NCBI GenBank assembly: GCA_903813345.2
Contig: CAIIXF020000002.1
Span: forward strand, 32,382,109 to 32,446,108
Direction: 5' to 3'
Length of the DNA: 64,000 nt
Origin: Owenia fusiformis
Taxonomy: Eukaryota > Annelida > Polychaeta > Sabellida > Oweniidae
Shown here: positions 15,541 through 61,482 of the stretch, one piece after another
How positions within the stretch are numbered: the first letter of the stretch is position 1
Layout: every line of letters begins with the position of its first letter
Translations under genes and position numbers: made by a program
Notes under the pieces: generated by a model
The model's database searches: none
What the model saw: the letters and a program-made list of their open reading frames with translations, nothing else
Told to the model about the DNA's origin: nothing

Positions 15541-16059
15541 TTGAATACACATTTTATGAACAAAACATACAAAGTTGAAAATTGATCTTTTTGAAATGAA
15601 ATTGCTGCTTACGTTTCAAAACTAAGGTATCTGTATTGCAAAAGTAATATTTAAATTGAATAAACCAAAAGAGATATACTTAAATTATCTAATTTTCCAT
15701 CAGATTTAGAAAAATTATAACTCTTAAGTAAATGTTGCAATGAATGCTCTCACATATCTTGTTGTATATCAATCTAGTGCAACTGCTACAGGTATCACTC
15801 TGACACGTATCTGTGAACAAATCAAACTTCTTTGATGTTGATGTAATGCAAATTGGTATATTTTAATATGATGTCCGTAAGATAAACCATCAATACTCAT
15901 CACTGTCACACCCATTACTACAAGATGATGTCTCTTAGATCACTGTCTGCAAGCTTTAAACTAAAAATAATCAACTTCACTATCTGCTGCATCACTATAA
16001 ATATAGAGGGTTGTCCTGGAAGTAATGCACTATATGCTCGTAATACTTTTTTATTCAAA

Positions 16060-16690
16060 ATCAAAAATCAATTATACTATTCCTATTTTACCTATTAAAT
16101 GATTTTTATATCTCCGAATAACCATTATATAAGTTTTTGGCAAAGTAAATAATTGTAGGCCTCACACAAGGATCAACTTTTTGAAGACTTTTTCGTACTG
16201 GTGTAGACTCTCCTGCTTGCAAAAGCAAGGGCGATGAATTGAGATTTTTCAGTCGAAACAAGAAAACAAACATATACTTATTTTTTCTTCAACAAATAAA
16301 ATACAAAATTGAGTTTACCTTCATATTTTTTCAAAACATCACTTAAAATGAAAATACTGTGAACAAAGTTGATCCTTGTGTGAGCCCATTAATTATTTAC
16401 TTCATCAAAAACTAATGAAATGGTTATTGGTATATTTAAAAGACATTGACTATATAAAATAGGAATAATAATATCCTTGACAATTGAAAAAACTTTTTAA
16501 TTGAAAATGCATTTTAAGGTCATAAATATCCAATTTTTACCATAATTGTTTTTCATAAAATTACCCAACCTGGATGGACTATCATTACACATCAATATCA
16601 AATTTGCATCCTATTTTGTATACTTACAAGTATTATTTAAAAAATTTATATTTTTCAAACTCATCTTTTTGACGGTCGCACCTTGGTGCA
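16060..16690. repeat. Internal palindrome in the right foldback arm
   Basis: GGCAAAGTAAATAATTG...CACACAAGGATCAACTTT near 16140-16180 is inverted relative to AAAGTTGATCCTTGTGTGAG...ATTATTTACTTCATC near 16365-16405. The same unit makes the left-arm palindrome. The loop contains AAGCAAGGGCGATGAATTGAG. Unit 2 has it at about 50140-50745. Confidence 0.72.
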
Positions 16691-17691
16691 AGCCGTTTAG
16701 CCCTTTCGTGTCACTATTTTGAATGCAGACAATTAAAAATGAATAGATAATAGATCAATCTAAAATGACTATGGGTTAATTCATAGTAAGCTACCACAAC
16801 ATAGGTTTGGCCTAACTAAGCCACTTAGAAAGCAATTTGTCACACACTAATACGCTGTGGGTTGAATCATATTCCATGTTATAAAATAAGTCATTTCAGA
16901 ACATATGCACTACACTATTTGCGTTTATTATGCTCTGTTAGTATGGCAACCCCTTAACCAATCATGTACAGACTCACCATATTAAAGAATAACATCAGTA
17001 TCCATGAGCTCTATAAATATAACTGTGACTGATTTTGTAAAAATAACTGTTTTAGCAAATTATCACTGAAAAGTGCCGCGCCCACTTTTGAGTAGAAAGA
17101 GAGGTAGTCACGTAATAGAACAGAGTCCAGAGTCAAAGATGTAATATAATTCATCATATTTATCATGTTATCTTATTAAACACTCCCCAAATATGTTTTT
17201 GGGGTACATTAATGTTCATTTTCAAATGATTCGAAGAGAAATGGTAACATCTGTTATTATAAGATGCTTCGGATTTACCTGAAATATTAAAGATTTTGAG
17301 CAATCGAATTGTGTTGCTATGGTAACCAATTGACCAATTAATGTCAAAATTGTTGTGACAGCTCACTATACATAGGCGCATGATCCCTGAAGATTTTATA
17401 GTGATTGGAGTTATAAAACAGAAATTATTAATGATTATAATAGTACCCCCTCATAAAATTACCCAAAGGGGTATAGATGGTGATTTTAAGGTTGTCCACC
17501 ACTTAGATTTTTCTAGATTTTTGATATGTTGTTTTACTTACCAATGGCTATTGATTGCACTAGGTTTACTCTGTATTGCATTTTTTTCATTTATTTGTGA
17601 ATATTTACAACGGTTTTACTGGAGTAAAAGATAATACCCACATTAGGCTAACATGTGTATCAATTGTTGTTGTATTTTATAAACATGCTTG

Positions 17692-17755
17692 ACTTGGCTA
17701 GCATGGCTTGGTTAGCATCTACAGCATCAATATCAATGAACCCCTGTTTCTGCAG
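17692..17755 (-). pseudogene. Displaced methyltransferase exon repeat (unit 1)
   Basis: This is one more copy of the exon start (minus strand CTGCAGAAACAGGGG... to GCCAAGT) with its AG acceptor. It was split from the array by the foldback insertion. It lacks 6 nt of the exon and has no donor, so it is a relic. Unit 2 has the same relic at 51769-51832. Confidence 0.8.
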
Positions 17756-17759
17756 CTAA

Positions 17760-19015
17760 AAGGTACCAATGAGAAACTGAAGGTATATACTGTATGTGCC
17801 TATGTAATTGAATATTTTGGGAAACTCGATCTATCCCTCCATCATAACACTGAATCGATTGACAAGAATATTTGTAGCATTGCATACTCACATCCAAACA
17901 CCTTTAGAACGGTAAAGTCAGAAAAATTAAAGGCTTTATTTCGATGGTAGAATATATTTAATACGTATACGATGAATAGAAAAAAAACATGTGGTCGCCA
18001 TTTGTGATAACGCCATCTGACTTCACCGGGTGTTCCAATGACCATTGTAATACTCATCATATTTCTTTTATGGTAAACATTTACTATAAAAAAAAGAAAA
18101 ACGAAAAACAAGAACATGTTCAAAAGAGCATGTACATGTTCACCGATGGAGAAACAGAAAAAAACTTTGTAACTTTGAATCTTCAGTCTTCAAGATCGTG
18201 CCAGTCAAATGAAGATTCTCTTGTTATTGGGACTATTTGGCATGGTTGGAACAATAGGGACAGAACGGAGAGATATTGTTACAGGAAATTGATTTTTATT
18301 TAATTTCGTCCAGGACAAAGACAAAGGATAATTAGGTACTGTCGGGATTACAATAGTAATACCGTAGTCGATTTCTTAGGGACATCAAACCAATGGTTAG
18401 CAGCTAGGCTACCTGAATATATATTTTGTCACGCTCCGAATTCATATAGAGCAGGGTTTTGGGCTTAGTTTGAGTATAGTAGCTTGGTCCTGACCTCGAC
18501 AATGAATGTGATATTGGGTCTAAAGATGGCGCCCCGCATCACTCTTGCCCGTATCCAGCTTGTGGCAAGGGGGAGTTTTTTGGCTTAAAACTCCCGAAAA
18601 ATGCTCAGTATGATGATAAAAAAATTCTAGCCAGGTAGCTTCTTCCCGTGGTATGACTTGAACACGCATCAAGTCATGCGATCTATGTCAAATAGTAAGC
18701 GGCCTCGTTTGGGGGTCCAGGGAGACTAGTGCCCTAAAGCTTAGTGCTCAGGCTTCCCCGAACCACCGTCAGTGAATATGTAACAGGTAGAGTATATTTA
18801 TTTGATCCTAGGATGATGATATTGGCGTATCATTTCCTATTTTCATTTTGTAAAGACAGGCCTGACATTCAGATCCTGTAACGGATCTTCTCTCTTACAT
18901 ATGAGTCACGGTGGGGGCCCCAGATGTTCCTAACTCTTGGGTAGTGGTCCATGATGTGTTCTTCATTAGCAGCCTTGTGATGATAGGGAAGGGGGGGGGG
19001 TTGTAATTCAAGTAC
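17760..19015. other. No gene recognised
   Basis: This region is shared with 51837-53090. It should be intron or 5' flank of the methyltransferase gene. A frame at 17989-18303 (plus) is kept only in part in unit 2. A stretch around 18640-18720 on the minus strand has a GTTCAAGTC that resembles a tRNA B-box, but no full tRNA or SINE could be drawn. I looked here for a methyltransferase exon with a GxGTG loop and did not find one. Confidence 0.4.
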
Positions 19016-24700: not shown

Positions 24701-25864
24701 CATTTTAGCCATTACGTTGAGTAGTTCTTCTGTTGAATAAGAATTGTTGTCATGTTTGACATTATAGCCATGACGTCGAATAGTAGTTAATATGGTTTTA
24801 AGATGATAGCTGTGTTCCTAGCAACATTTACAATATTAGTGTAACAAACACATTAGAGAAGTGTTCGTCAGCTAATTGCATTCTATATTGAACGTGTTTG
24901 GCATTACGTTGAGCAGTTGTTCTGTTAAAGTTCAGTTGACATTCCGACATGAAAATTGTTATCATGTTTGGCATTATTACCAGTATGTCGAATAGTTGTT
25001 CTGTTGAAGTACAGTTGGAACTCCTACATAAAAAATGTTATCATGTTTGGCATAATTACCAGTACGTCGAATAGTTGTTCTGTTGAAGTACAGTTGGAAC
25101 TCCGACGTAAAGAATGTTATCATGTTTGGCATTATAGCCATTACGTCGAGCAGTTGTTCTGATGCAGTACAGTTCGAACTCTGACGTAAAAGACTTTAAG
25201 TCTACTTGTATCGTGGGTTGACGGATTCGTATAATGCGTCGAACGCAGGTACAATTTAGCAACCTCAAAAAGGGGTTAGTCGCTTGGAGCGACAATGCGA
25301 TATTTACATGTTTTTAATGCTATTTCTGTGTAATTTCAGGAAATACAACCCATACTAGGGTATGGACACACGCCTAAATGAACATTGGAACACAAGTTGT
25401 CCTTATAAGATAGATACAAGTGTGATATAAATAAGATGCTTTGGACTGATTCAAAGAAGACTACTTTGTTGGATTGAGATCTATATAAGATAGATACAAG
25501 AAATACAACCAATAGTAAGGTATGGACACAAGCCTATTTGAACACTGGGACACATTTTGTCCATATAAGATAGATACAAGCGTGATATAGATTAGATGCT
25601 TTGAGCTGAATAAAAGAAGACTACTTTGTTGGATTGAGATCCATATAAGACAGATACATGTACGTGTGATACAGATACGATGCCTTGGACTGATTCAAGG
25701 AAGACTACCTTTGTTGGAAGTCTCAAAGAAGAGACATTTCGAGCTTTGGTCACTAGTTTGCCCGTTTTTTAGAAGGTTCTGGCGTAGCTGCTGGCTCCAA
25801 TTTAATCCTATAATATATGTGATATTATGTTGTGTGGTTTGTGGTGAAGACTGTTTAATTAGGA
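21731..25864. mobile_element. Unclassified non-coding element, first of a head-to-tail pair
   Basis: It starts with a 197-bp block A (TAAAATTCAACACG...) and ends with a 78-bp block B (GCTGCTGGCTCC...TTAATTAGGA). AATAAT flanks it at 21725-21730 and 25865-25870. The interior is made of three families of tandem repeats: ~260-bp units with GAATCG.TACCAGGAGGGT..GATTCA (23130-24450), ~77-bp units with ATCATGTTTGGCATTAT (24680-25200), and ~170-bp units with ATATAAGATAGATACAAG (25330-25680). No protein is evident and the class is unknown. It looks recent, because blocks A and B match the second element almost perfectly. Confidence 0.65.
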
Positions 25865-30322: not shown

Positions 30323-30493
30323 GTAGTTTTAAACTAGACGAAACTCTCTTTAAAGGAGATGGACCATGTTTTGAGAGAGGGGTCAGCATCAAACGAAATA
30401 TCATGTATTGATACGGTCCCTCACAGTGCAATATATTGTTCATCGAGTCTCAATATTAATCCTATAGGAGAGCGACAAAGTAATGACAACACG

Positions 30494-32338
30494 ATGTTCC
30501 GCTTTGTCGTGAACGCAAGTCTGATATTGGGGCTTATGAACTTTTTATTTGTATGCCCACAATATCAAAAGTACAGTTACCAGATCAAGAGTAAAACTCA
30601 GAGCAAAACAACTTCTAAGAATGGTGAAGAGCTCAACATTTTAGAAAATAATTCAGGAGAACGCAAAACGCTGTTTTCACGCGATACGAAATCTGATGTT
30701 TATTCCCCTGCTTTGAGAGAGAAGAGGGAAATACAAAACGAAACATGCAACTCGGTCGAAATAGATTTTAACTGTAATGATACAAAAAGATCTTGCCGGG
30801 AGCGTTGTGGTGACAAAGTAACAATGGAAAATGCGACGAGCTTTGTCTGTCACTGTGATGAGTTATGTACACATTACGGTGACTGTTGTAAAGATTACGC
30901 ACAACAATGCCAAGGTTGTAGGGTTACTGAACATGGTGTCGACAGGAACCAGACCTTCATTGATATCGGTGATGAAAGTTGCGCCCCTCTTTCTGTTGAT
31001 GACACACAACGCTCAGACTACAAATGCACGCGTGTTCAAGGAGTCGTGAGTGTGTACCTAAAAGCCAGTTGTCACGCGGACTTTAAGGGTTTTGCATTGG
31101 AGAAAAAGTGCTTCGGTGAAGGTGACACCTATTCAAATATTCCTTGCTACGATGTCATTAAAGGTACACATTACAAGAACAAGTATTGCGCCGAGTGTGA
31201 CTACGGTGAAGCAACGATGTTTTGGAGATTGAAAATCGGATGCGGAAATGATTACCACTTCAACAGATTAAAAGTTGGAAACGTGAATATTCCTCAAATA
31301 ATGGGATTGTTACAGGGTTTAAGAAAAATTGGTCGTGGATGTCAATCCGAATACTTGGAACCCTTCAACGAGGACACAAACGGGATTGCCCTATGGTCTT
31401 CACGTCCTTGCATTTACACTAACTCCGTGTGCAAGTTTTGTGAGGACACGCGTCTAGAAGCACTCTGTCAAACCATCGGTTTAGATCCAATCGAGTTTCA
31501 TCGAAATTATTACTGTTGGAAATGTAATCTGAATCGGGAAGTGGGAACGCAACTATACTCTAAACTCTGTCGACTTGACCTATTTGCCGCCGGCGGAAAG
31601 TCACAGGACGATTTCCAAATGTTTTCGTTTCAAATTTTAATGGACGTTATGGGAGACACCATCAATGTAAAAACTCTTGCGAACGAACATTACACAAGAG
31701 TAGCTGAAGTGGATCTTGCGTGTTCTGATGATCTCATTCAATGCCGATTGAAACGATGCCTTGGCAACTTGAAACTCGTTGGAGATAGATGTGTCATACG
31801 TGACATTCTTGTGAAAGTAGCAATCACATGTAAGATATTACTTTATTCAAACTTGTCAACATTCATTTCATCTTATATCACTTCACAAATTGTATTGGAA
31901 GTTTTTCCACCGCTTCGCATAATTTTCGATACTGTCGACTTCAAGAGAGGTAGCAAGTGGGTGACCAAAACGTACAAATTCGACGTTTTATTTCAAGACA
32001 AAGCTAATGTTTCGGAAACATTCAACAAAACAATGGTAGATAAGTTTGATCAGTTGAAAGGGAAATTGGACGGTTTTCTTCTTTCTCACAATCTGTCTAA
32101 TCACGCGGTTCTTATTGGCATTGAGTACAATGTCCCCACAGTGCAAGAAAGGACAAATTCTATGGTGGCCCAAAATAGTTCAACAGCGACAGTTAGCGCA
32201 GTGTCAACAAGTATAAGGAAGTCAGCACACTGCTCGGCCGGCACAACACCACACACATTTATATTCCCGATGTTGATTTGGATTTTCATCTTCAAAATCA
32301 ATGTTCCTCGGCATATAGACGAACGTGACCAGAGATAG
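30494..32338 (+). CDS. SMB-domain cysteine-rich secreted/surface protein, paralog 1
   Basis: One exon, 614 residues from the chosen ATG. An upstream in-frame ATG at 30359 exists, but unit 2 has GTG there and a shifted frame. MFRFVVNASLILGLMNF, a signal peptide or anchor, starts both paralogs. Residues 75-78 (REKR) form a furin site. Residues 101-139 carry the eight cysteines of an SMB domain (C101, 105, 119, 121, 125, 131, 132, 139), including CHCDELCTHYGDCC. A long cysteine-rich region follows with NKYCAECDYGE and CIYTNSVCKFC, resembling extracellular regions of SMB-bearing invertebrate receptors, but there is no seven-helix domain. The hydrophobic stretch at 589-600 (FIFPMLIWIFIF) could be a membrane anchor or GPI signal. 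Several N-glycosylation sequons are present. Ligand and function are unknown. Confidence 0.85.
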   Translation: MFRFVVNASLILGLMNFLFVCPQYQKYSYQIKSKTQSKTTSKNGEELNILENNSGERKTLFSRDTKSDVYSPALREKREIQNETCNSVEIDFNCNDTKRSCRERCGDKVTMENATSFVCHCDELCTHYGDCCKDYAQQCQGCRVTEHGVDRNQTFIDIGDESCAPLSVDDTQRSDYKCTRVQGVVSVYLKASCHADFKGFALEKKCFGEGDTYSNIPCYDVIKGTHYKNKYCAECDYGEATMFWRLKIGCGNDYHFNRLKVGNVNIPQIMGLLQGLRKIGRGCQSEYLEPFNEDTNGIALWSSRPCIYTNSVCKFCEDTRLEALCQTIGLDPIEFHRNYYCWKCNLNREVGTQLYSKLCRLDLFAAGGKSQDDFQMFSFQILMDVMGDTINVKTLANEHYTRVAEVDLACSDDLIQCRLKRCLGNLKLVGDRCVIRDILVKVAITCKILLYSNLSTFISSYITSQIVLEVFPPLRIIFDTVDFKRGSKWVTKTYKFDVLFQDKANVSETFNKTMVDKFDQLKGKLDGFLLSHNLSNHAVLIGIEYNVPTVQERTNSMVAQNSSTATVSAVSTSIRKSAHCSAGTTPHTFIFPMLIWIFIFKINVPRHIDERDQR

Positions 32339-37986: not shown

Positions 37987-40455
37987 CAGGCCCGTAAGAC
38001 ACTTTTCTCCAAGGGGGTGCGGTTTTTACTAAAGAGAATATAAAATTGTCAATTTTTTGCCGCGTAAATCAAATCGCCGAAGTCAGAGGGGGGGGGGGGG
38101 GGTCGGTTACTCCCTATATCGGTTTGGCATTAACAAATGCAACTTCAAAACGTTCCAATCGTTTTGTGGGGGATGTGAGGAGTTGTCCACTCCCCCTAGA
38201 AAATTTTACAGTTTTGAGATGCTATTTGGTGCATTCTGGGCACTTTCAAAGTGTATGAGTCTATAAGAAAAATGTGAATTCTTTTTCAAATTCTTTTGGG
38301 GGTGGCAAAAAAGATGAGAGGGTGAAGTGGGGCGGGGTGCCAGAAGGGGAGCAAGGGGTTGTCCCCCAGAAACATTGACCATATCAAGGTGGGGGATGTG
38401 AGGGGTGGCTAACTCTTCTAGAAAGGATGAGTCTGGGAATGAGTCTGGGTATCGACTTAGAAAATATTGAAAATTGTAATGTCTGAAAAACCAACTCAAT
38501 TACACATATTATTAAACTTCAATATCTTATCCTTCTTCTGAGATTACAAAAATATTAATTTGTATCACAATTGATGAAGAATATTGGCATCAAAGACAGT
38601 GCATATCACTTTGTCAGAATTGAAAAAAAAATCAATGGCAAATATTAAATGAATTAATTATGCAAAAAGTTTGAAACTTATCTTCCAAAACATTGGTTAC
38701 TTTCTTTGTATAGACATTGAATGGTATTTCTGGATAAGTGAATTGGTGTTTATCTGGGTAATCAAGGGATTATAGTCACTCAAAGTTACTGAGCATCCAG
38801 TTTTGAGACTTCAATTGTGTTAGTGAAGTTACACATATTCCAGTCAAATTCATGCTGAGCACAACATTCCGGTTTCAATTTTATAATCTCTATACATGAC
38901 CCTGGTGATGAAGAGTCAGAATCAATCAAAAAACCTAAACCGGAAAACTGTGCTCATTGTGAAAACTAAAAGTGAAGCAACTTTTTTTCTGATATTTCTC
39001 ATATCAAATGGCAACCATCTTGTTTTTCCCCCTTCAAATTAAACTGGCGGGAAATTCAAAAATTTGAAAAAATGTTAATCCTTAAATATATTTTTCAAAA
39101 ATATGATTTTCTCTTTAATTCTTCATGGGTCTTAAGTTATTTCTTCTTTGTATGTCATACATGTTGCCATTGGTGTTTTTTTTCTATGATAATGACTATT
39201 TTTTTGTTTGTTAAGATACTTATTCTGACTCTCAGTAGGGGGTTAATTATGCATCAAAACTTGTGAAAAAGTAAATATACTTATCAAATATAACTAGGTC
39301 AGTAATAAAAACCATATTTCACATACATTTGACTGAGGGACCAAAAGGGCATATACCCAGACACATCCTTTTACAATTTAAAGATGATATTTGGTGCTTC
39401 TAGGCACTTTTAAAGTGTATTAGTCAATAAAAACATTGAAAAACAAAACAATCATAATTTTTTTCAAATTTTGGGGGTGTCAAAGGGGAGGGGAGGGAAG
39501 GGTGCCAGAGGGGGAGGTGGGGTTGGGGTGCCAGAGGGGGAGCAAGTGTTTGTCCACCAAATCTGTCCCCCAGAAACATTTACAACATCAAGGTGCTAGT
39601 CGATGAAGTCTGGGCACTTTAAAAGTGTCTGTGGCCTATTTCCCAAGAAAATTTTACAATTTTAAGATGCTATTTGGTGCTTTCTTGGCACTTTCAAAGT
39701 GTATGAGTCAATAAAAAATTTGAAAAATCTTAATTTCTTTTTTGGGGGGGGGGTGTCAAGGGGGGATGCCAGAGGGGGAGGTGGAGTGGGGATGCCAGAG
39801 GGCGAGTAAGTGTTAGTCTCCCAGAATCATTAACTATATCAAGGAGCTATTTGACGATGTCTGGGCAATTTAAAAGTGTCTGAGATACATAAAACAAATT
39901 CAGAACTTTTCCATTGTTTTGTTTGGGGTGTGAGTGGTGGCCCACTCCCCCTAGAAAATTTTACAATTTTACGACGATATTTGGTGCTTTCTGGGCACTT
40001 TCAAAGTGTATGAGTCAATTAAAGAATTTGAGAAAATCACAACTTTTATCAAATTAATTTTTTTTGGGGGGGGGTCAGAGGGGGAGTTGGTGTGGGGATG
40101 CAAGTGCAAGATGCAAGAGGGAGAGCAAGTACTAGTCCCCCAGAAACACTAACTGTATCAAGGAGCTATTTGATGGTGTCTATGCACTTTAAAAGTGTCT
40201 GAGACAAAACACTAAAATAAATTTAGAACTTTTCAATTGTTTTGTGGGGGTGAGGGGTGGCCAATACCCCTAGAAAATTTTACAATTTTAAGATGCTATT
40301 TGGTGCTTTCTGGGTACTTTCAAAGTGTATGAGTCAATGGAAAAAAATTTTCAAAAAAAATTTCTTTTTCAACATTTTTTTTTCAAATTTTTTTGGGGGG
40401 TGACAAAGGGGGGTGCGGTCGCACCCATCGCACCCCCCCCCATCTGACGGCCCTG
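37987..40455. mobile_element. CAGG-ended G-rich element, 5-bp TSD (unit 2 site)
   Basis: The same ends (CAGGCCCGTA...GACGGCCCTG) and the same ~285-bp internal tandem unit as 12870-14606, but at a different place. CTATA is duplicated at 37982-37986 and 40456-40460, and unit 1 has the unbroken site near 5951. Length is 2469 bp including a 944-bp nested insertion. With no transposase, it must have been moved by an enzyme coded elsewhere. Confidence 0.87.
38425..39368. mobile_element. Nested element with GGATG.GTCTGGG ends
   Basis: It starts GGATGAGTCTGGG and ends with the reverse complement of GGATGTGTCTGGGTATATG, interrupting a repeat of the CAGG element that is unbroken in the related repeat at 13551-13565. 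No TSD is clear: the junction lies in a run of A and T bases. The 944-bp interior is AT-rich with no supported gene. Confidence 0.7.
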
Positions 40456-41316: not shown

Positions 41317-43318
41317 TCAGATTATTCTAAAGACGGCCCTGAATCCATCAATTGATTTGTCGACATACCAATTTGGAAAATATTCTTTTTTGACCAATGT
41401 CCACATTTTGTCGTTTTCAAGTTGTTCCATGGCTTCTTTAAATCCTACCATTTTCTCCAATAAGTCAGCTCGTATCTGAATCAGAATCAGGCCGCCTGGA
41501 ATTACATTGATATTTAACATACGAGGGACCATCCTCCGAATGCAGGGCTCCAGACATCACCGTCTACGTTCTTTCCATCTATCTTAGGAAGAACGAGATA
41601 CGAGTACTTGTAGGCCTGTATTCGGATGATATCATATAGGGAACTATAGACAATATTGAAATATTATGCTCATGTTTGCATTTTGAAATTATTCTAAATT
41701 TTCTTTAACATTGCTATGTTAATATGTTTAGTGATTTTGATAAATAATAGCATTCAATCATCACTGTCAAGATTTTCATTTTTTTCTTTCAAGACACAAG
41801 ACACGCGGCGCATTACCGCCAAAAAGTAGCTTTTAAAATTAAATTTTACATAAGTGAATTTCTATAAACTCTCTCCCCCATCTCTTAGAATGTTACAAAT
41901 TTTTATTTAGGCCATAAGAAGTAGATTTTTTGTTTTGCGTCTTGGCAAAATCAAAACCATGCAAGGGTACAAGGAAAACAAACACAAACTCAAGAAAAAA
42001 CACAAACTTGTTTGCTGAGAAATGTATACATTTTAAGGGAATAAAATGGGATGACATACCAATTTGCAGTAATTACGAAGACATATCTATGTTTATTAAT
42101 ATATAATAATTTAAACTATATTATTCAAGGGTACAAAATAAGAAATACAAAATGTATGCCAACGTTATCAATAATACTGTCAATTTTGACGCACATCAAA
42201 TTATCCGCCATTTCTTCTGATTCTAATTGAAAGAAATGCGATGGTACATTCAGACCCTTGTGATTGCTATTTGGATGTGTTTGTTTTTTTCTGATTTACT
42301 CAAAATCGTGCAAGCAAGGGGACGCAAAACAAAGAATCTACTTCTTATGGCCTTATGTATTTTAAATATTTTGAAAAATAATGCAAAGTGTCCAACTTTT
42401 GTGGTCACCCTGTCGATAACAAGTCGATGGTCTGGTCAGTCTGCACTGGCGGATCCAGAAACTAATAAGCAGACAAGGGGGGGGGGGGCAAACTTCGAGT
42501 CAGCAAAAATAATTTTGGCCCCTAAAACCAAAAGTTGGGCCCAAATTTTTAAAATTCAAGCCCGATTTTTGTATTATTTGGCTTAAAAAGGCCAAATTAT
42601 GCCCAAAAGACCCATCTTTTTGAAGCCCTACAAGATTTTTGGGCCCACATATTTTTGATCCGCCGGTGGTCTGCACACGATATCTCACAAGATTCTATTA
42701 TCATCGAGATCTGATTGTACGAGGCTTAATTATAATTACTGTACCAGGTTTCATGATGCGGACCAACTCTGGAAAACAGTCACCGGTGACATGGGACTCG
42801 TTAAAGCAACCAGTTGCAACTGCGCCATCGTACGTATCTAAAACAAACAAAGGATAAGTGTTAACGTGGTTTAAACAGAGGTGACATGTATAGAGAAAAA
42901 CTGGAATAATTCTATATTTTTACATCTGTACAAGGTGTGATCAATATGTTTTGTAACTGACCCTCTGACTGTGAAAATGTTTCTATATCAAGTACGATGA
43001 TGTCACTTAGGGTGCAAATTCTTTCATATGCTCAAACATGTTTTCATGAGCCTAATAAACCATATAATATTTTTAACTGAAACTAACCCTGTCAGCAAAA
43101 ACCCAAAATTATTGTTTCTGAAGGATAGAGTTTTTTCAGTATGGATATGTTTTAATAAGACATTCTGGTTAAGATAGCTTACCATTTTTGATGTCCAGTG
43201 TGTTTAGCCCAAGGAAATCACAAATCAGTCGGTTGTAAACATTCTTAGACTTGGCTACATCTAGCATGGCTTGGTTAGCATCTATAGCATCACAATCAGT
43301 GAAACCCTGTTTTTGCAG
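41317..43318 (-). CDS. METTL27-like methyltransferase, last three coding exons (unit 2)
   Basis: The minus-strand exons are 43183-43318, 42745-42837 and 41317-41495 (stop at 41317-41319), with the same splice sites and phases as unit 1. The first exon reads LQKQGFTDCDAIDANQAMLD, so it differs from unit 1 at a few residues. The other two are nearly unchanged, with one Pro-to-Ser change near the C-terminus. All three are open. As in unit 1, the upstream exon with SAM motif I was not found. The last intron holds a Harbinger-like MITE and the short CAC-ended element instead of the LINE. The upstream intron holds the expanded exon minisatellite. Confidence 0.82.
41910..42352. mobile_element. PIF/Harbinger-like MITE (unit 2 only)
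   Basis: The termini are GGCCATAAGAAGTAGATT and its reverse complement, extending imperfectly through TTTGTTTTGCGTC. A 3-bp TTA repeat flanks it (41907-41909 and 42353-42355). Unit 1 has the empty site near 8550. A TTA target and GGC termini are typical of PIF/Harbinger. It is 443 bp and has no coding capacity. Confidence 0.85.
42444..42668. mobile_element. Short CAC...GTG element, 5-bp TSD (unit 2)
   Basis: The counterpart of 8640-8866 with the same ends and the same GTCTG repeats (42439-42443 and 42669-42673). It is two bases shorter, in the G-run and in an A-run. Confidence 0.75.
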
Positions 43319-45735
43319 CTGAAAGATAATACCCACATGAGGCTCACATGCATATTACATCAATTGTTGTATTTTATAAACTTGCTTTGACTTGGCTACA
43401 TCTAGCATGGCCTGGTTAGCATCTATAGCATCAATATCAATGAAACCTAGTCTCTGCAGCTAAAAAGATAATACCGACATGAGGCTAACATGTGTATCAA
43501 TTGTTGTATTTATAAACATGCTTTGACTTGACTACATCTATCATGGCCCGGTTAGCATCTATAGCATCAACATCAGCGAAACCCAGTCTCTGCAGCTAAA
43601 AAGATAATACCCACATGAGGCTAACATGTGTATCAATTGTTATAAACATGCTTTGACTTGACTACATCCAGCATGGCCTGGTTAGCATCTATAGCATCAA
43701 CATCAGTGAAACCCTGTTTTTGCAGCTATAAGATAATACCCACATGAGGCTAACATGTGTATCAATTGTTATAAACATGCTTTGACTTGACTACATCCAG
43801 CATGGCCTGGTTAGCATCTATAGCATCAACATCAGTGAAACCCTGTTTTTGCAGCTGAAAGATAATACCCACATGAGGCTCACATGCATATTACATCAAT
43901 TGTTGTATTTTATAAACTTGCTTTGACTTGGCTACATCTAGCATGGCCTGGTTAGCATCTATAGCATCAATATCAATGAAACCTAGTCTCTGCAGCTAAA
44001 AAGATAATACCGACATGAGGCTAACATGTGTATCAATTGTTGTATTTATAAACATGCTTTGACTTGACTACATCTAGCATGGCCCGGTTAGCATCTATAG
44101 CATCAACATCAGCGAAACCCAGTCTCTGCAGCTAAAAAGATAATACCCACATGAGGCTAACATGTGTATCAATTGTTATAAACATGCTTTGACTTGACTA
44201 CATCCAGCATGGCCTGGTTAGCATCTATAGCATCAGCATCAGTGAAACCCTGTTTTTGCAGCTGAAAAATAATACCCACATGAGGCTCACATGCATATTA
44301 CATCAATTGTTGTATTTTATAAACTTGATTTGACTTGACTACATCTAGTATAGCATGGCCTGGTTAGCATCTATAGCATCAATATCAATGAAACCTAGTC
44401 TCTGCAGCTAAAAAGATAATACCGACACGAGGCTAACATGTGTATCAATTGTTATAAACATTCTTTGACTTGGCTACATCTAGCATGGCCTGGTTAGCAT
44501 CTATACCATCAACATCAGCGAAATCCTGTTTTTGCAGCTGAAAAATAATACCCATATGAGGCTCACATGCATAATACATCAATTGTTGTATTTTATAAGA
44601 TTGCTTTGACTTGACTACATCTAGCATGGCCTGGTTAGCATCTATAGCATCAATATCAATGAAACCTAGTCTCTGCAGCTAAAAAGATAATACTGACATG
44701 AGGCTAACATGTGTATCAATTTTTGTATGTTATAAATATTCTTAGACTTGGCTACATCCAGCATGGCCTGGTTAGCATCTATAGCATCAATATCAGTGAA
44801 ACCCAGTCTCTGCAGCTAAAAAGATAATACCCACATGAGGCTAACATGTGCATCAATTGTTATAAACATGCTTTGACTTGACTACATCTAGCATGACCTG
44901 GTTAGCATCTGTAGCATCAATATCAGTGAAACCTAGTCTCTGCAGCTAAAAAGATAATACCGACATGAGGCTAACATGTGTATCAATTGTTGTATGTTAT
45001 AAATATTCTTAGACTTGGCTACATTTAGCATGGCCTGGTAAGCATCTACAGCATCAATATCAGTGAAGCCCAGTCTCTGCAGCTGAAAATAGTCCAGTGC
45101 TAACATGCTTTGACTTGGCTACATCTAGCATGGCTTGGTTAGCATCTATAGCATCAATATCAGTGAAACCCTGTTTTTGCAGTTGAAAGATAATACCCAC
45201 ATGAGGCTCACATGCATATTACATCAATTGTTGTATTTTATAAACTTGCTTTGACTTGACTACATCTAGCATGGCCTGGTTAGCATCTATAGCATCAATA
45301 TCAACGAAACCTAGTCTCTGCAGCTAAAAAGATAATACCGACATGAGGCTAACATGTGTATCAATTGTTGTATGTTATAAATATTCTTAGACTTGGCTAC
45401 ATCTAGCATGGCCTGGTTAGCATCTATAGCATCAATATCAGTGAAACCCAGTCTCTGCAGCTAAAAAGATAATACCCACATGAGGCTAACATGTGTATCA
45501 ATTGTTATAAACTTGGTTTGACTTGACTACATCTAGCATGGCCTGGTTAGCATCTATAGCATCAATATCAGCGAAACCCAGTCTCTGCAGCTAAAAAGAT
45601 AATACTGACATGAGGCTAACATGTGTATCAATTGTTGTATGTTATAAATATTCTTAGACTTGGCTACATTTAGCATGGCCTGGTAAGCATCTACAGCATC
45701 AATGTCAGCTTAGCCCAGTCTCTGCAGCTGAAAAT
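43239..45735 (-). repeat. Exon-derived minisatellite (19 repeats, unit 2)
   Basis: Nineteen copies of the exon start, counting the true exon, occur at 120-145-bp spacing. Nearly all keep the minus-strand acceptor (TTTTTAG or TTTCAG before CTGCA) and an exon piece that can be read as LQ.LGF.DIDAIDANQAMLDVAKSK. Blocks of three to four units recur together (for example 43250-43860 and 43850-44250), so the array grew by duplicating higher-order blocks. Only the first copy (43183-43318) has the rest of the exon and the donor. Confidence 0.9.
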
Positions 45736-45737
45736 AG

Positions 45738-48700
45738 TCCAGTACTGTAAAAACATAAAAAATAAATGAAAAAATTGCAATACTTATTAAACCTAGTGTA
45801 ACAACTGCATATTGATGAGTTTAAAGACATATTAAAAATCTAGAAAAATCTAAGTAGTGGAAAACATGTAAAATTCACTATTTGTACCCCCTGGTATTAT
45901 TTTATGAGGGGTACTATGATAAGCATTTATATTTTCTGTTGGGTGCCCCTAATCACATTCACATTTTCAGAGATTATGCATCAATATATAGTTAGTTGTC
46001 ATGCGAAGCTTGATCTTGATTGGTCAATTGGTTATCATGGCAACACAATTTAATTGCAAAATATTGTAAATATTAAGGATAAATCTACTGTTTCCCTACA
46101 AACAGATGGTAGGTTGTCATTTTTAATTTTTCAAAATGGACAAAAGTTGAGCTTGATACATATTGAAGTGTTTACAACAAGATAACATGATAAATAGGAT
46201 GACATATTTGGCGCATGTTTGATAACTACTGTATATGCCATAGTAACACAACATAATGTATGTAAATCGTTGGTAGAGGTCATTCCAGGTATTCCTTGTT
46301 CCTTAACACATTGTTTATTACATTCATCCTTAAGAACTGTTTTAGTGTATGATTTTTTTTCCAAATACAAGTTTGGATAATTGATATGCGTTTGCTATGG
46401 TAACCACAGATTAAAATTATATGTGACAAAATGGTGATTCTTGACATCCTAGACTCTAGAAGGTGTATCAACTTAGACAATGTAGGCTGTATCAATCTTG
46501 GATTATGGATGCTGTACCCATCATAGACTCTGGAGGATGAACCCATTAAACACTAGAGGCTTAACTCTCTAAGACTCTAGAGGCTGTACCATCTTAGATC
46601 CATTTATTAGATCACAATTAATCACAGATTGATGTGACAAAATGGTGACTCTTGACATCTTAGACCCTAGAAGGTGTATCAACTTAGACTATGTAGGCTG
46701 TATCAATCTTGGATTATGGATGCTGTACCCATCATAGACTCTGGAGGATGAACCCATTAAACACTAGAGGCTAAACTCTCTAAGATTCTAGAGGCTGTAC
46801 CATCTTAGACTCTTGGAGGCTACACCCATCTTTGGCTTTGGAGAGGCCGTACCATCTTATATAGCAAGCATAGCATCTGAAAGCTGTGCCATCTTATACT
46901 CTGGAGACTGATCCCATGTTATATCTGGAGGCCGTACCATCTAAGGGTCTGGAGGCTGTACCATCCTAGACGTATGGCTCTGACTGCTATAGCAATCTTA
47001 GATTCTGAATGTTGTATCATCTCGGACTCTGCATGCTGAATACATATTACGCTCTAGAGGCTGTATCATATTAGATTCTTGAGACTGCACTAATCTTATA
47101 CTCTGGAGGCTGTACCATCTATATACTCTGGAGGCTGGACCAACTTAGGCTCTTTTGAACTATTCTATGGTCTCGTGTTTTACCATATTAGGCTATTGGA
47201 TGATATGTTCTGGTATTGAAGCGCACCATAGTGGGTGCCAAAACTCCAGAAAATCACAAAAACCTATGTTGTGGTAGCTTACTATGAAGTGACCCATTAT
47301 CATTATAGATTGGTCCATCAACTATTAATTTTTACTTGTCTGCACTCAAAAAGGTGACACGAATGGGCTAAACGGCTTGCCACAAGGTGCAACCATCAAA
47401 AAGATGAGTTTGAAAAAATTATTTTTTTCAAATGATTGTTAATGATAATATTCCTATTTCACCTATTCAATGTTTTCAAAATATTTTAATTACCATTATA
47501 TTCATTTTTGGCAAAGTAAATAAATATAGGGCTCACACTAGGATCAACTTTATTTGCAATCTTTTCATATTAAGTGATGTTTTGAAAAAATATAAGGCTA
47601 AACACAATTTTATTTGTTAAATGTTTAACAAAATAAACATAGTGTGTTTATTTCATTGTTTCGACTGAAAAATCGCAATTCATTGCTCTTCCTCTTAGAA
47701 CGGCAGGTGATATGCAAGTACATAAACAGTCTTAAAAAAAGTTGACCCTTGTGTAAGCCCTTCACTTATTTACTTTGCCAGAAACTGATATAATGGTTAT
47801 TCGGTGGTATAAAAATCATTTCAAAGGTAAAATAAGAAGAATGTCATTGAACTTGGAATAAAAAGCATTATATGGTTAGAAATACTCAATTTTTACCATA
47901 ATTGTTTTTAATAATATAACCATACCCTAATGGACTATCTCTACATTTCAATAACCAATGTGCATTCTATTTTGCATGTTTTACTGCAATTTTTTGAATT
48001 TGGAAAACACATCGGCTTACTGATCCAATTCAGAACTTCTAGAGAAAGTATCTCTCGTGAAAAACTTCGTCAACGTGACCGTTGATTACTGATTGCAGTC
48101 ATTAAACTAATGACCTCATATTTGGATATCCTCTCTTCTGATATGATTTTACAATTTTCTTCAAATTGGCATAGTACCAGATATAGTATGGCAAGTGATA
48201 TCTGACGGTCATATATTTTACCATGACTACTTTCTCAATATAAATATGACATTTCTCAAAAACACAATATGTTATCTTTCAAGAAAATTCAATTCTCAAT
48301 GATAATAAAAATATCATTCGAACAATCTAAAAAACTATGAATAGGGAACCCATCTCAACATTTTTTTGAACTTATTTACTCAACAGAGGTTCTTCTTTTT
48401 TATTTGAATTGCATGAAAATATTATTCAACAAGTGGTCTAAAACCTTTTCATCAGTAGAATTATAATGGAAGTCTAGTTTTGGAGATATCAATTTTAAAT
48501 GACCAAATTATGCTGAAAACAATGGATAGTTTGAGTTTTTCCAATGGAAAATAAACCTAATATTTTTCAAAAAGTGACAAGGTGGGGATGTTATCAATAA
48601 TATTTCAGATAACATTTTCATATGTTTATATTTTCAATTTCAATTTATTCATACATTCAAGCATTATGTTTACAAATATTATTAATAACAGGTGGCACCA

Positions 48701-51700
48701 CAGGTGATGCTTATACCTGTACATATAGTAGTTAAATCATGTAGTGTATCATTAAGTTGTCAAGGAATCAAACCAGAATGAAATCATAAAAAATAAAGTG
48801 AAAAATGAAGGTTGAAGGGTATTTCTGATGTTTTTTTCTTTTCAAGTGAAGAAATTGGATGATATCATTTTTATCACGGGACTTTACATAAGAAAAATCA
48901 TATTGTTTTCACAAAAACACGTTCAGCCCCAAAACGCCAAATACTAATCAGATATTGAGCTATGACCTTGAAATGATCTTGATCCATAAACACTGACATG
49001 GATCTCTGGTCACTTTATCATTGGTCATATCATTAAATAAGAATGTAGCCCCACAGTAGCCAACTACCTAGATATTGACCTTTGACCTTGAAATGACCTT
49101 GACATCAGGTCACCTAATCATTGGTCGCCAAAGGTCAAATTTGTTCTCAATTGCCTCAAAACGACAAATTGCTAGATATTGCCTTGGAAGTCGCTAGGGG
49201 CCACAGCAGATCCCAGGGCCTTAATACACCAAATACTTAGATACTGAGATTTGACCTTGGAATAACCTTGACCTCAGGTCACACATTCATGATTCACAAA
49301 GGGTAACCTCAGCCCAAAAAACGCCAAATACTTAGATATTGATGACCTTGAAATGATCTTGACCTATAGACCTTGACCTTGACAACAGGTCACCTGATAA
49401 TCGGTTGTCAAAAGTCAGAATTATTCTCAATTGCCTTAAAACATCAAATTGCTAGATATTGACCTTGAAATTACCTTCACCCATTCAGTTGATCTTTACC
49501 TCATGTCACATAATTATTGGTTGTGAAGGGTCATACCATCGGCAAAATGTCTTAAAATGCCAACTACTCTAGATATTGATATTTTAAACTTGAAATGACC
49601 CTGACTTTTGACTTATGTTGAATACACATTTTATGAACAAAACATACAAAGTTGAAAATTGATTTTTTTGAAATGAAATTGCTGCTTATGTTTCAAAACT
49701 AAGGTATCTGTATTGCAAAAGTAATATTTAAATTGAATAAACCAAAAGAGATATACTTAAATTATCTAATTTTCCATCAGATTTAGAAAAATTATAACTC
49801 TTAAGTAAATGTTGCAATGAATGCTCTCACATATCTTGTTGTATATCAATCTAGTGCAACTGCTACAGGTATCACTCTGACACGTATCTGTGAACAAATC
49901 AAACTTCTTTGATGTTGATGTAATGCAAATTGGTATATTTTAATATGATGTCCGTAAGATAAACCATCAATACTCATCACTGTCACACCCATTACTACAA
50001 GATGATGTCTCTTAGATCACTGTCTGCAAGCTTTAAACTAAAAAATAATCAACTTCACTATCTGCTGCATCACTATAAATATAGAGGGTTGTCCTGGAAG
50101 TAATGCACTATATGCTCGTAATACTTTTTTATTAAAAATCAAAAATCAATTATACTATTCCTATTTTACCTATTAAATGATTTTTATATCTCCGAATAAC
50201 CATTATATAAGTTTTTGGCAAAGTAAATAATTGTAGGTCTCACACAAGGATCAACTTTTTGAAGACTTTTTCGTACTGGTGTAGACTCTCCTGCTTGCAA
50301 AAGCAAGGGCGATGGATTGAGATTTTTCAGTCGAAACAAGAAAACAAACATATACTTATTTTTTCTTCACAAATAAAATACAAAATTGAGCTTACCTTCA
50401 TATTTTTTCAAAACATCACTTAAAATGAAAATACTGTGAACAAAGTTGATCCTTGTGTGAGACCATTAATTATTTACTTCATCAAAAACCAATAAAATGG
50501 TTATTGGTATATTTAAAAGACATTGACTATATAAAATAGGAATAATATCCTTGACAATTGAAAAAACTTTTTAATTGAAAATGCATTTTAAGGTCATAAA
50601 TATCCAATTTTTTACCATAATATTGTTTTTCATAAAATTACCCCACCTGGATGGACTATCATTACACATCAATATCAAATTTGCATCCTATTTTGTATAC
50701 TTACAAGTATTATTTAAAAAATTTATATTTTTCAAACTCATCTTTTTGACGGTCGCACCTTGGTGCAAGCCGTTTAGCCCTTTCGTGTCACTATTTTGAA
50801 TGCAGACAATTAAAAATGAATAGATAATAGATCAATCTAAAATGACTTTGGGTTAATTCATAGTAAGCTACCACAGCATAGGTTTGGCCTAACTAAGCCA
50901 CTTAGAAAGCAATTTGTCACACACTAATACGCTGTGTGTTGAATCATATTCCATGTTATAAAATAAGTCATTTCAGAACATATGCACTACACTATTTGCG
51001 TTTATTATGCTCTGTTAGTATGGCAACCCCTTAACCAATCATGTACAGACTCACCATATTAAAGAATAACATCAGTATCCATGAGCTCTATAAATATAAC
51101 TGTGACTGATTTTGTAAAAATAACTGTTTTAGCAAATTATCACTGAAAAGTGCCGCGCCCACTTTTGAGTAGAAAGAGAGGTAGTCACGTAATAGAAGAG
51201 AGTCCAGAGTCAAAGATATAATATAATTCATCATATTTATCATGTTATCTTATTAAACACTCCCCAAATATGTTTTTGGGGTACATTAATGTTCATTTTC
51301 AAATGATTCGAAGAGAAATGGTAACATCTGTTATTATAAGATGCTTCGGATTTACCTGAAATATTAACGATTTTGAGCAATCGAATTGTGTTGCTATGGT
51401 AACCAATTGACCAATTAATGTCAAAATTGTTGTGACAGCTCACTATACATAGGCGCATGATCCCTGAAGATTTTATAGTGATTGGAGTTATAAAACAGAA
51501 ATTATTAATGATTATAATAGTACCCCCTCATAAAATTACCCAAAGGGGTATAGATGGTGATTTTAAGGTTGTCCACCACTTAGATTTTTCTAGATTTTTG
51601 ATATGTTGTTTTACTTACCAATGGCTATTGATTGCACTAGGTTTACTCTGTATTGCAATTTTTTCATTTATTTGTGAATATTTACAACGGTTTTACTGGA
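45738..51700. mobile_element. Giant foldback transposon with nested palindromes (unit 2)
   Basis: The counterpart of 9923-17623 without the CAGG insertion, 5963 bp. Its ends (TCCAGTA inward), the GGCTGTACCATCTTAG minisatellite (about 46440-47150), the left-arm palindrome (from about 47420), the TGACCTTGA repeats (about 48960-49600) and the right-arm palindrome (about 50140-50745) are all kept. The two copies look about 98% alike, consistent with insertion before the segmental duplication. Confidence 0.78.
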
Positions 51701-51768
51701 GTAAAAGATAATACCCACATTAGGCTAACATGTGTATCAATTGTTGTTGTATTTTATAAACATACTTG

Positions 51769-51832
51769 ACTTGGCTAGCATGGCTTGGTTAGCATCTACA
51801 GCATCAATATCAATGAACCCCTGTTTCTGCAG
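51769..51832 (-). pseudogene. Displaced methyltransferase exon repeat (unit 2)
   Basis: The counterpart of 17692-17755: acceptor plus about 64 nt of exon start, without donor, at the right edge of the foldback element. Confidence 0.8.
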
Positions 51833-51836
51833 CTAA

Positions 51837-53090
51837 AAGGTACCAATGAGAAACTGAAGGTATATACTGTATGTGCCTATGTAATTGAATATTTTGGGAA
51901 ACTCGATATATCCCTCCATCATAACACTGAATCGATTGACAAGAATATTTGTAGCATTGCATACTCACATCCAAACACCTTTAGAACGGTAAAGTCAGAA
52001 AAATTAAAGGCTTTATTTCGATGGTAGAATATATTTAATACGTATACGATGAATAGAAAAAAACATGTGGTCGCCATTTGTGATAACGCCATCTGACTTC
52101 ACCGGGTGTTCCAATGACCATTGTAATACTCATCATATTTCTTTTATGGTAAACATTTACTATAAAAAAAGAAAAACGAAAAACAAGAACATGTTCAAAA
52201 GAGCATGTACATGTTCACTGATGGAGAAACAGAAAAAAACTTTGTAACTTTGAATCTTCAGTCTTCAAGATCGTGCCAGTCAAATGAAGATTCTATTGTT
52301 ATTGGGACTATTTGGCATGGTTGGAACAATAGGGACATAACGGAGAGATATTGTTACAGGAAATTGATTTTTATTAAATTTCGTCCAGGACAAAGACAAA
52401 GGATAATTAGGTACTGTCGGGATTACAATTAGTAATACCGTAGTCGATTTCTTAGGGACATCAAACCAATGGTTAGCAGCTAGGCTACCTGAATATATAT
52501 TTTGTCACGCTCCGAATTCATATAGAGCAGGGTTTTGGGCTTAGTTTGAGTATAGTAGCTTGGTCCTGACCTCGACAATGAATGTGATATTGGGTCTAAA
52601 GATGGCGCCCTGCATCACTCTTGCCCGTATCCAGCTTGTGGCAAGGGGGAGTTTTTTGGCTTAAAACTCCCGAAAAATGCTCAGTATGATGATAAAAAAA
52701 AATTCTAGCCAGGTAGCTTCTTCCCGTGGTATGACTTGAACACGCATCAAGTCATGCGATCTATGTCAAATAGTAAGCGGCCTCGTTTGGGGGTCCAGGG
52801 AGACTAGTGCCCTAAAGCTTAGTGCTCAGGCTTCCCCGAACCACCGTCAGTGATTATGTAACAGGTAGAGTATATTTCTTTGATCCTAGGATGATGATAT
52901 TGGCGTATCATTTCCTATTTTCATTTTTGTAAAGACAGGCCTGACATTCAGATCCTGTAACGGATCTTCTCTCTTACATATGAGTCACGGTAGGGGCCCC
53001 AGATGTTCCTAACTCTTGGGTAGTGGTCCATGATGTGTTCTTCATTAGCAGCCTTGTGATGATAGGGAAGGGGGGGGGGGTGTAATTCAA
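51837..53090. other. No gene recognised (unit 2 copy of 17760-19015)
   Basis: Shared non-coding sequence, expected to be intron or 5' flank of the methyltransferase gene. No exon with a GxGTG loop was seen. Confidence 0.4.
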
Positions 53091-59487: not shown

Positions 59488-59649
59488 AAACTAGACGAAG
59501 CTCTCTTTAAAGGAGGTGGACCATGTTTGGAGAGAGGGGTCAACATCAAGCGAAATACCATTATTGATATGCTCCCTCACAGTACAATAAATAGTTCTTC
59601 GAGTCTCAATATTAATCATATTGGAGAGCGACAAAGTAATGACAACACG

Positions 59650-61482
59650 ATGTTCCGATTTGTCGTGAACGCAAGCCTGATGTTGGGGATTATGAACTTT
59701 TTATTTGTATGCCCACAGTATCAAAAGTACAGTTACCAGATCAAGAGTAAAACTCAGAGCAAAACAACTTCTGAGAATGGTGAAGAGCTCAACATTTTAG
59801 AAAATAATTCAGGAGAACGCAAAACGCTGTTTTCACGCGATACGAAATCTGATGTTTATTCCCCTGCTTTGAGAGAGAAAAGGGAAATCCAAAACGAAAC
59901 ATGCAACTCGGTCGAAATAGATTTAAACTGTAATGATACAAAGAGATCTTGTCGAGAGCGTTGTGGTGATAAAATAACAATGGAAAATGCGACGAGCTTT
60001 TACTGCCACTGTGATGAGTTATGTCAACATTACGGTGACTGTTGTAAAGATTATGCACAACAATGCCAAGGTTGTAGGGTTACTGAACATGGTGTCGACA
60101 CGAACCAGACCTACATTGATATCGGTGATGAAAGGTGCGCCCCTCTTTCTGTTCATGACACACAACGCTCAGACTACCAATGTACGCGTGTTCAGGGAGT
60201 CGTGAGTGTGTACCTAAAAGCCAGTTGTCACGCGGACTTTAAGGGTTCTGCTTTGGAGAAAAAGTGCCACAGTGGAGGTGAGCCCTATTCAAATATACCT
60301 TGCTACGATGTCATTAAAGGTACACATTACAAGAACAAATATTGCGCCGAGTGTGACTACGGTGAAGCAGCGATGTTTTGGAGACTGAAAATCGAGTGCG
60401 TAAATGGTTACCACTTGAACAGTTTAAACGTTGGAAACTTGAATATTCCTGGAATCATGGGATTGTTACAGGGTTTAAAAAACATTGGTCGAGGGTGTCA
60501 ATCCGAATACTTGGAACCCTTCAACGAGGACACAAACGAGAGTGCCCTAGGGTCTTCACGTCCTTGCATTTACACTAACTCCATGTGTAAGTTTTGTGAG
60601 GACACGCGTCTGGAAGCACTCTGTCAAACCATCGGTTTAGACCCAATCGAGGATTTTACGGTCCATCGAAATTATTACTGTTGGAAATGTAATCTGAATC
60701 GGGAAGTGGGAACGCTACTATACTCTGAACTCTGTCGTCTTGACCAATTTGCCGCCGACAGGAAGTCACAGGACGATTTCCAAATGTTTTCGTTTCAAAT
60801 TTTAATGGACGTTATGGGAGACACCATCAATGTAAAAACTCTTGCGAACGAACATTACACAAGAGTAGCTGAAGTGGATCTTGCGTGTTCTGATGATCTC
60901 ATTCAATGCCGATTGAAACGATGCCTTGGCAACTTGAAACTCGTTGGAGATAGATGTGTCATACATGACATTCTTGTGAAAGTAGCAATCACATGTAAGA
61001 TATTACTTTATTCAAACTTGTCAACATTCATTTCATCTTATATCACTTCACAAATTGTATTGGAAGTTTTTCCACCGCTTCGCATAATTTTCGATACTAT
61101 CGACTACAAGAGAGGTAGCAAGTGGCTGACCAGCACGTACACATTCGATGTTTTATTTCAAGACAAAGCTAATGTTTCGGAAACAATCAACAAAACAATG
61201 GTAGATAAGTTTGATCAATTGAAAGGGAAATTGGACGATTTTCTTCTTTCTCACAATCTGTCTAATCACGCGGTTCTTAGTGGCATTGAGTACAATGTCC
61301 CCATAGTACCAGAAAGGACAAATTTTACGGTGGCCCAAAATAGTTCAACAGCGACAGTTCGCGCAGTGTCAAGTACAACGAAGTCAGCACACAGCTCGGC
61401 CGGCGCAACACCACGCACATTTATATTCCCGATGTTGATGTGGATTTTCATCTTCAAAATCAAAATATTCCGCGGCATATAG
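59650..61482 (+). CDS. SMB-domain cysteine-rich secreted/surface protein, paralog 2
   Basis: One exon, 610 residues from the ATG of MFRFVVNASLMLGIMNF. The open frame extends upstream but has no in-frame ATG before this one. The furin site (REKR) and SMB cysteines are as in paralog 1 (FYCHCDELCQHYGDCC). Relative to paralog 1 there are about 30 amino-acid changes in the ~230 residues after the SMB domain, plus three extra residues giving EDFTVHRNYYC. The next ~110 residues (DDFQMF through DGD/IIFDT) are almost unchanged. The C-terminus ends soon after FIFPMLMWIFIF with KIKIFRGI and lacks the polar tail of paralog 1. That fits a GPI-anchor signal with SAGA as possible cleavage site better than paralog 1 does. 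No seven-helix or other catalytic domain is present. Confidence 0.85.
   Translation: MFRFVVNASLMLGIMNFLFVCPQYQKYSYQIKSKTQSKTTSENGEELNILENNSGERKTLFSRDTKSDVYSPALREKREIQNETCNSVEIDLNCNDTKRSCRERCGDKITMENATSFYCHCDELCQHYGDCCKDYAQQCQGCRVTEHGVDTNQTYIDIGDERCAPLSVHDTQRSDYQCTRVQGVVSVYLKASCHADFKGSALEKKCHSGGEPYSNIPCYDVIKGTHYKNKYCAECDYGEAAMFWRLKIECVNGYHLNSLNVGNLNIPGIMGLLQGLKNIGRGCQSEYLEPFNEDTNESALGSSRPCIYTNSMCKFCEDTRLEALCQTIGLDPIEDFTVHRNYYCWKCNLNREVGTLLYSELCRLDQFAADRKSQDDFQMFSFQILMDVMGDTINVKTLANEHYTRVAEVDLACSDDLIQCRLKRCLGNLKLVGDRCVIHDILVKVAITCKILLYSNLSTFISSYITSQIVLEVFPPLRIIFDTIDYKRGSKWLTSTYTFDVLFQDKANVSETINKTMVDKFDQLKGKLDDFLLSHNLSNHAVLSGIEYNVPIVPERTNFTVAQNSSTATVRAVSSTTKSAHSSAGATPRTFIFPMLMWIFIFKIKIFRGI

Follow-up and report, generated by a model that had tools for sequence, protein, structure and literature searches.

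A probable mirage minisatellite across the intron 2/exon 3 boundary of a METTL27-like gene in the annelid Owenia fusiformis

Mirages are tandem repeats that run across exon-intron borders and are known from the Adh3 and globin genes of amphioxus (PMC3087553). In the globin gene BflGb6, units of 150-160 bp that are 81-100% identical join the 3' end of an intron to the 5' part of the following exon; the two haplotypes carry six and three units, which show concerted evolution, and homogenization has left out the boundaries of the cluster (PMC3087553). In BflGb9 it is the donor side that is duplicated. For the amphioxus mirages, RT-PCR (reverse transcription polymerase chain reaction) suggests that regular splicing is undisturbed, and they have been suggested to be perhaps general in cephalochordates (PMC3087553). 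Here we describe a comparable array in a 64,000-nucleotide stretch of the Owenia fusiformis genome (498 Mb), namely positions 32382109-32446108 of contig CAIIXF020000002.1 (C2; the whole stretch is called the window, and positions without a contig label are counted from its first letter). The array lies in a METTL27-like methyltransferase gene on the minus strand, and its unit consists of the 3' end of intron 2, the acceptor and the first ~80-88 nt of exon 3. With good though not complete confidence, we regard it as a mirage minisatellite in an otherwise intact gene, founded by exchange between paralogs, enlarged by unequal crossing over or conversion, and drifting nearly neutrally. The kind of array is already known but rarely reported and the lineage is apparently new: the host is, unlike amphioxus, apparently a lophotrochozoan, and among the matches listed in literature searches aimed at boundary-spanning minisatellites, none came from outside amphioxus.

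The gene was located by translated searches among its paralogs and has five exons. The copy nearest its 5' end (copy 2) holds exons 3-5 intact within the window: exon 3 at 43183-43318, with the acceptor TCTTTCAG just before 43318, the donor GTAAGC from 43182, an open frame and a match to mouse METTL27; exon 4 at 42745-42837, with its splice sites and an open frame; and the coding part of exon 5, including the stop codon, at 41317-41495. Exons 1 and 2 have matches at C2:32451314-32451478 and 32450033-32450173, some 4-5 kb past the end of the window and across an intron 2 of ~24.6 kb; with them the five-exon gene is complete and its splice phases are consistent. Once they had been located, the idea that the genes in the window are 5'-truncated fragments, suggested by the lack of a motif I exon there, was dropped. 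The peptide of exons 3 and 4 matches mouse METTL27 (7qcb) with an E value of 6.3e-08. The joined protein of 235 aa reaches 9.5e-24, the next match in the Protein Data Bank (PDB) being 9.4e-07, and both Pfam Methyltransf_25 and Methyltransf_11 are above cut-off. The match runs across the methyltransferase domain and METTL27 is the best in PDB; the gene is METTL27-like, as a first-pass annotation, drawn from the letters of the window alone, had proposed for the repeated exon. The family is expanded in this genome, with at least about 16 gene places, counted exon by exon, at C2:31.5-32.5 Mb, C8:5.54-5.58 Mb and C4:29.3 Mb.

The window contains a tandem duplication of ~33 kb, in which positions 1-33117 match the sequence from 33118 on. 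Blocks are mostly 94-98.7% identical, a few repeat-rich ones are less alike, and the copies are ~1% diverged near the METTL27-like gene. Copy 1 carries, also on the minus strand, a true exon 3 at 9380-9515, an exon 4 at 8943-9035 (no mismatch to copy 2 in 97 positions, the exon with 4 flanking nt) and the coding part of exon 5 with its stop codon at 6812-6990. A third, more diverged 3' half, L011, adjoins these copies and is ~91% identical over exon 3-4 blocks; its exon 3 has a native intron and no array, and its exon 4 is frameshifted, whereas copies 1 and 2 have open frames throughout exons 3-5. The layout comprises one 5' half with exons 1-2 and, after it, copy 2, copy 1 and L011 in that order as three 3' halves in tandem. 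Copy 2 alone directly follows exons 1-2; the other two have none of their own, and translated searches found exons 1-2 neither in the window nor in C2:32350001-32382200. To judge from this order, the extra 3' halves could yield alternative 3' ends or be dead duplicates.

The repeat units stand head to tail upstream of exon 3 in the transcript, that is, at higher coordinates on the minus strand. In copy 2, 18 decoys (43319-45735) and the true acceptor at 43318 make 19 units; the first exon-like bases of the decoys are 43459, 43595, 43725, 43854, 43995, 44131, 44261, 44407, 44537, 44678, 44815, 44945, 45082, 45182, 45323, 45460, 45590 and 45727. Copy 1 has four units, namely three decoys (9516-9919, also minus strand, with first bases 9645, 9782 and 9912) and the true acceptor at 9515. 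The AG is kept in 17 of the 18 decoys of copy 2 and in all three of copy 1, the unit at 45182 having AA. The first-pass annotation had derived the array from an exon with its acceptor, expanded 19-fold and 4-fold; unit anatomy, exon similarity and splice sites bear this out, the true exon being included in each count, as they do the direction of transcription and the two true acceptors. Its statement that each repeat carries AG holds for every decoy except that at 45182. Acceptors in copy 2 are 100-146 bp apart (17 of the 18 spacings are 129-146 bp, one is 100 bp). Tandem Repeats Finder (TRF) reports the array at 43374-45734 with a period of 130, 17.7 copies and a score of 2634, with overlapping rows of period 267 from 43236 and period 407 from 43232; in copy 1 it reports 9429-9919, again with period 130, and 3.7 copies. 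Run on 43183-45735 alone, TRF gave a score of 2806 against a best of 50 among 50 base shuffles, so the array is far from chance.

Two unit types can be told apart, some units being mixtures: type A encodes LQRL... and has an acceptor mostly ending in ...CTTTTTAG, whereas type B encodes LQKQ... and has an acceptor mostly ending in ...TTTCAG. The extent 43183-45735 given earlier for the array was correct for its compact part; a further degenerate unit, the 5'-most, sits apart at 51832 (approximately 51704-51842, minus strand) and has a native, L011-type intron flank, and its counterpart in copy 1 is at 17755 (approximately 17627-17765, minus strand). Between the compact array and this unit of copy 2 lies a foldback-like stretch (45736-51703, limits approximate) with long imperfect inverted arms that are 70-85% complementary, among them 45760-45872 and 51561-51673. 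The corresponding stretch in copy 1 is 9920-17626; inverted arms were examined in copy 2 only.

In both copies the tandem units are of minisatellite size, and each contains an exon-intron boundary with a copy of its splice site; the array of copy 2 adjoins an authentic exon 3 whose two splice sites and open frame are intact. Dscam-type arrays of mutually exclusive exons consist of tandem whole exons with both splice sites; the present array resembles them in being made of tandem copies of exon sequence and differs in that all decoys are devoid of the exon-3 donor. Tandem exon duplication was set aside, as complete exon copies are missing and the authentic donor occurs only at 43182. The closest likeness is to BflGb6, which shares the acceptor-side minisatellite unit across an intron-exon boundary and the concerted evolution (PMC3087553). 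The arrays of the window differ from the amphioxus mirages in their 18 and 3 units, block duplications, two unit types and flanks of two paralogs, and their exchange, unlike the homogenization described for BflGb6, reaches into the true exon (PMC3087553). In potato RdRp, a duplication likewise crossed such a boundary, covering the 3' end of an intron and the exon after it; the difference is that there it gave a new intron (PMC4974935).

Growth of the array is, as read from its repeats, by block duplication of 536 and 645 bp, in agreement with the higher-order duplication noticed at first sight. A 405-nt block (43295-43699, minus strand), which extends into the true exon, recurs 536 bp away at 43831-44235 with one mismatch, which separates identical stretches of 246 and 158 nt, and a second repeat is seen as 292/300 identical positions in a 300-nt segment at an offset of 645. 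The units would then have multiplied by unequal crossing over or conversion. The founding event appears to be of another kind. Over the 45 nt next to the acceptor, aligned without gaps, the three type A junctions examined share 36-37 positions with L009, a paralog half a megabase away, and 18 with L011, while the 5'-most unit shares 34/45 with L011 and 16/45 with L009. The order is thus a truncated exon-3 copy that keeps its native intron and, downstream of it in the transcript, exon-3 junctions with an intron flank like that of a different paralog. The linkers have no native L011-type flank, and on this ground founding by plain tandem duplication of the native junction was set aside. Because the type A linkers match a paralog other than the one matched by the native intron, founding was probably ectopic: a non-allelic exchange between paralogs would have put an L009-type junction beside the truncated native exon 3.

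Comparison of the two tandem copies shows that the array and the true exon exchange sequence, since the true exons differ mainly in the part that is homologous to the array. In that part, made up of 60 flank nt and exon nt 1-79, copies 1 and 2 differ at 23 of 138 sites, against 12 of 1175 in the remainder, which comprises exon nt 80-136, intron 3, exons 4 and 5 and 500 nt beyond, with gap columns and intron 4 left out (Fisher P 1.6e-15, sites treated as independent). In a comparison restricted mostly to coding sequence, the mismatches are 6/79 and 3/333 (P 0.002). Of the two unit types, LQRL and LQKQ, one is found in the true exon of copy 1 and the other in that of copy 2, although the remainder compared is almost identical. 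The true junction of copy 1 is identical to decoy 9782 at 138 of 139 positions; that of copy 2 agrees with decoy 43854 at 84/84 positions as far as exon nt 24 and at 48/55 thereafter. Most simply, since the copies arose a unit of the other type has been the source of the acceptor region and first codons of one true exon. Either copy's exon may be the recipient, and the match to 43854 could also mean copying from exon to array.

A mirror image of the array is found 12 kb past the window in the paralog L021/L036 (C2:32458334-32459305), where exon 2, which encodes S-adenosylmethionine (SAM) motif I, is repeated as 7 x 140 bp. Each of these units has the donor GAG|GTAAGA, and only the first copy has the usual exon-2 type acceptor; this donor-side form corresponds to BflGb9 (PMC3087553). 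Smaller donor-side arrays are present at C2:32507609-32507880 (two units) and C2:32518042-32518241 (one full and one partial unit). As the array of L021/L036 mirrors that of the window, arrays have been seeded from both borders of one intron position within this cluster. The large array of this apparently lophotrochozoan host, together with a donor-side counterpart in nearby paralogs, suggests that tandem repeats seeded by splice junctions reflect a wider process. The exchange between array and exon, the probable ectopic founding and the mirror-image array in sister paralogs go beyond what the available parts of the precedents describe.

The main visible consequence of the array is mutational: exchange has given exon 3 of one tandem copy another acceptor flank and other first codons, and the array more likely serves as a local mutation source than as an established switch of splicing. 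More tentatively, and with less than even confidence, mirage arrays may be mutational engines, in which unequal exchange overwrites the live acceptor and first exon-3 codons, arrays having arisen on both sides of one intron position in different paralogs and that of the window through non-allelic paralog exchange. If so, the 5' end of exon 3 evolves in cassette-like jumps. Tandem gene copies in which an array and a functional exon trade an acceptor and first codons provide a natural comparison for such a process.

The decoys themselves look relaxed rather than clearly selected. The ratio of nonsynonymous to synonymous differences (pN/pS) is 0.67 in the exon parts of 20 decoy units (44407 and two remnants left out) and 0.32 in the true exons of four paralogs and of the two window copies (six in all), as near-neutral drift of the units would predict. 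Several observations weigh against a neutral mirage of ectopic origin. The pN/pS of the decoys is below 1, and 16 of the 18 decoys of copy 2 are stop-free in their first 26 codons; both may be due to youth and to homogenization with functional exons. The case for ectopic founding leans on short flanks, and the two type B junctions examined share 18/45 positions with L009 and equally 18/45 with L011 without gaps. In a gapped alignment the type B flank resembles a rearranged relative of the L009-type flank. In addition, the ~1% divergence of the 33-kb copies makes mis-joined haplotypes possible, in which case 19 and 4 units would be allelic states.

Among other readings, an effect on splicing survives best, although it is improbable: 17 rival acceptors, possibly with five decoy exons ended by GTGAGC, would divert some of the transcripts to stop-bearing forms, and array length would set expression, like the dial that the first-pass annotation had considered. 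Of the acceptor 23-mers of the copy 2 decoys, 16/18 lie within two mismatches of one of the two true ones and five are identical; 45727 and 45082 carry another flank. If the frame set by exon 2 is continued from a decoy, an in-frame stop follows within 6-78 codons in all 18 cases. The unit of the variable number tandem repeat (VNTR) in an intron of human ABCA7 is not known to be a copied splice junction. That VNTR is likewise a tandem repeat within a protein gene; its length is variable and correlates with skipping of exon 19, which shows that the length of an intronic VNTR can track splicing (PMC5954066). On the other hand, RT-PCR of the amphioxus mirages suggested that regular splicing was undisturbed (PMC3087553), and the loss of AG in one of 18 decoys is unremarkable and gives no sign of selective upkeep.

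The position of donors also bears on this reading. The first-pass annotation saw no donor in the repeats; this stands for the authentic exon-3 donor, and decoys as complete exons ending in it were rejected on that ground, whereas five type B linkers (43347, 43883, 44290, 44566 and 45211) contain a donor-like CAT|GTGAGC. With a consensus matrix, this site scores 4.4, just below the true exon-3 donor (5.1) and above the donors of exons 1, 2 and 4 (<1). The mean best score in 200 base shuffles is 5.9, so the donor-like sites of the linkers are at chance level. By the logic of exon definition, acceptors that have no donor within exon distance should see little use. The authentic donor is 136 nt from the true acceptor and 277 and 413 nt from the nearest decoys. 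No acceptor other than the true one and, at most, those of the nearest decoys is at exon distance from it, so regular splicing probably continues. The decoy 277 nt away should be the most exposed to use, which would give a stop-bearing transcript and, we expect, at most a modest penalty. The array in any case offers a natural test of how splicing chooses one acceptor among many near-copies.

An assembly artefact, in which two haplotypes were joined in tandem as the 33-kb copies or the array itself was mis-assembled, is quite improbable. The low divergence near the gene would suit it, and one mirage seems to be aberrantly assembled in the amphioxus draft (PMC3087553). However, the window contains no N, the adjoining, diverged L011 3' half suggests that the tandem arrangement predates allelic variation, and exons 1-2 are found once only beside three 3' halves.

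It is slightly less probable still that the array is a cassette reservoir, which supplies variant acceptors and first codons to the live exon because selection favours diversification. The first codons of exon 3 are, we presume, the SAM-binding motif II region; two unit types exist, and the true exons of copies 1 and 2 differ in type within otherwise almost identical sequence. A single exchange is nevertheless mutation and not adaptation, copy 1 may be dead, since only copy 2 directly follows exons 1-2, and amino acid change above the neutral expectation has not been demonstrated. That the units are nascent introns or exons, with intron gain through tandem duplication and recruitment of units as exons joined by short introns, is very improbable. 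Potato RdRp did acquire an intron through a boundary-crossing duplication (PMC4974935), and an origin of introns from mirages has been proposed (PMC3087553), but every decoy reading meets a stop and, among the best 14 of 147 GT sites, none lies within the exon-derived part of a decoy.

Other features of the window and of the genome were recorded alongside. The window is rich in minisatellites, with many other tandem repeats (e.g., 24915-25191, 25340-25718 and 39642-40383), several of which have units of 79-319 bp. Each 33-kb unit has one large open reading frame (ORF) on the plus strand, at 30359-32338 and 59527-61482. The former, the only one scanned, encodes a Somatomedin B domain (Pfam), and the latter, on the strand opposite to the METTL27-like gene, falls within that gene's intron 2. 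Intron 4 of copy 1 contains a 324-aa open frame (7199-8173, plus strand) that looks by eye like the end of a retroelement protein; among the ORFs of at least 90 aa, copy 2 has no counterpart listed at the corresponding position. Elsewhere, none of 106 p450 and 16 aldehyde dehydrogenase matches had the same profile range repeated within 500 bp, as judged by eye from the tables; that scan scored 92/719 and 12/214 first-look candidates and has little bearing on how frequent mirages are. Family searches intended to place the host yielded no match for COX1, whose control was positive in 8 of 14 control genomes, and none for GFP and FARP, whose controls were negative in every genome, which makes those two results uninformative. 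Finally, the host's apparent place among the lophotrochozoans is taken from a neuropeptide sign: a degenerate DNA pattern for FMRFG followed by basic residues gave nine hits, five of them clustered on C6, where a neuropeptide precursor of FMRFamide type with 23 FMRFG/FLRFG copies in one open frame is present at about 23.7566-23.7574 Mb (L053/L054).

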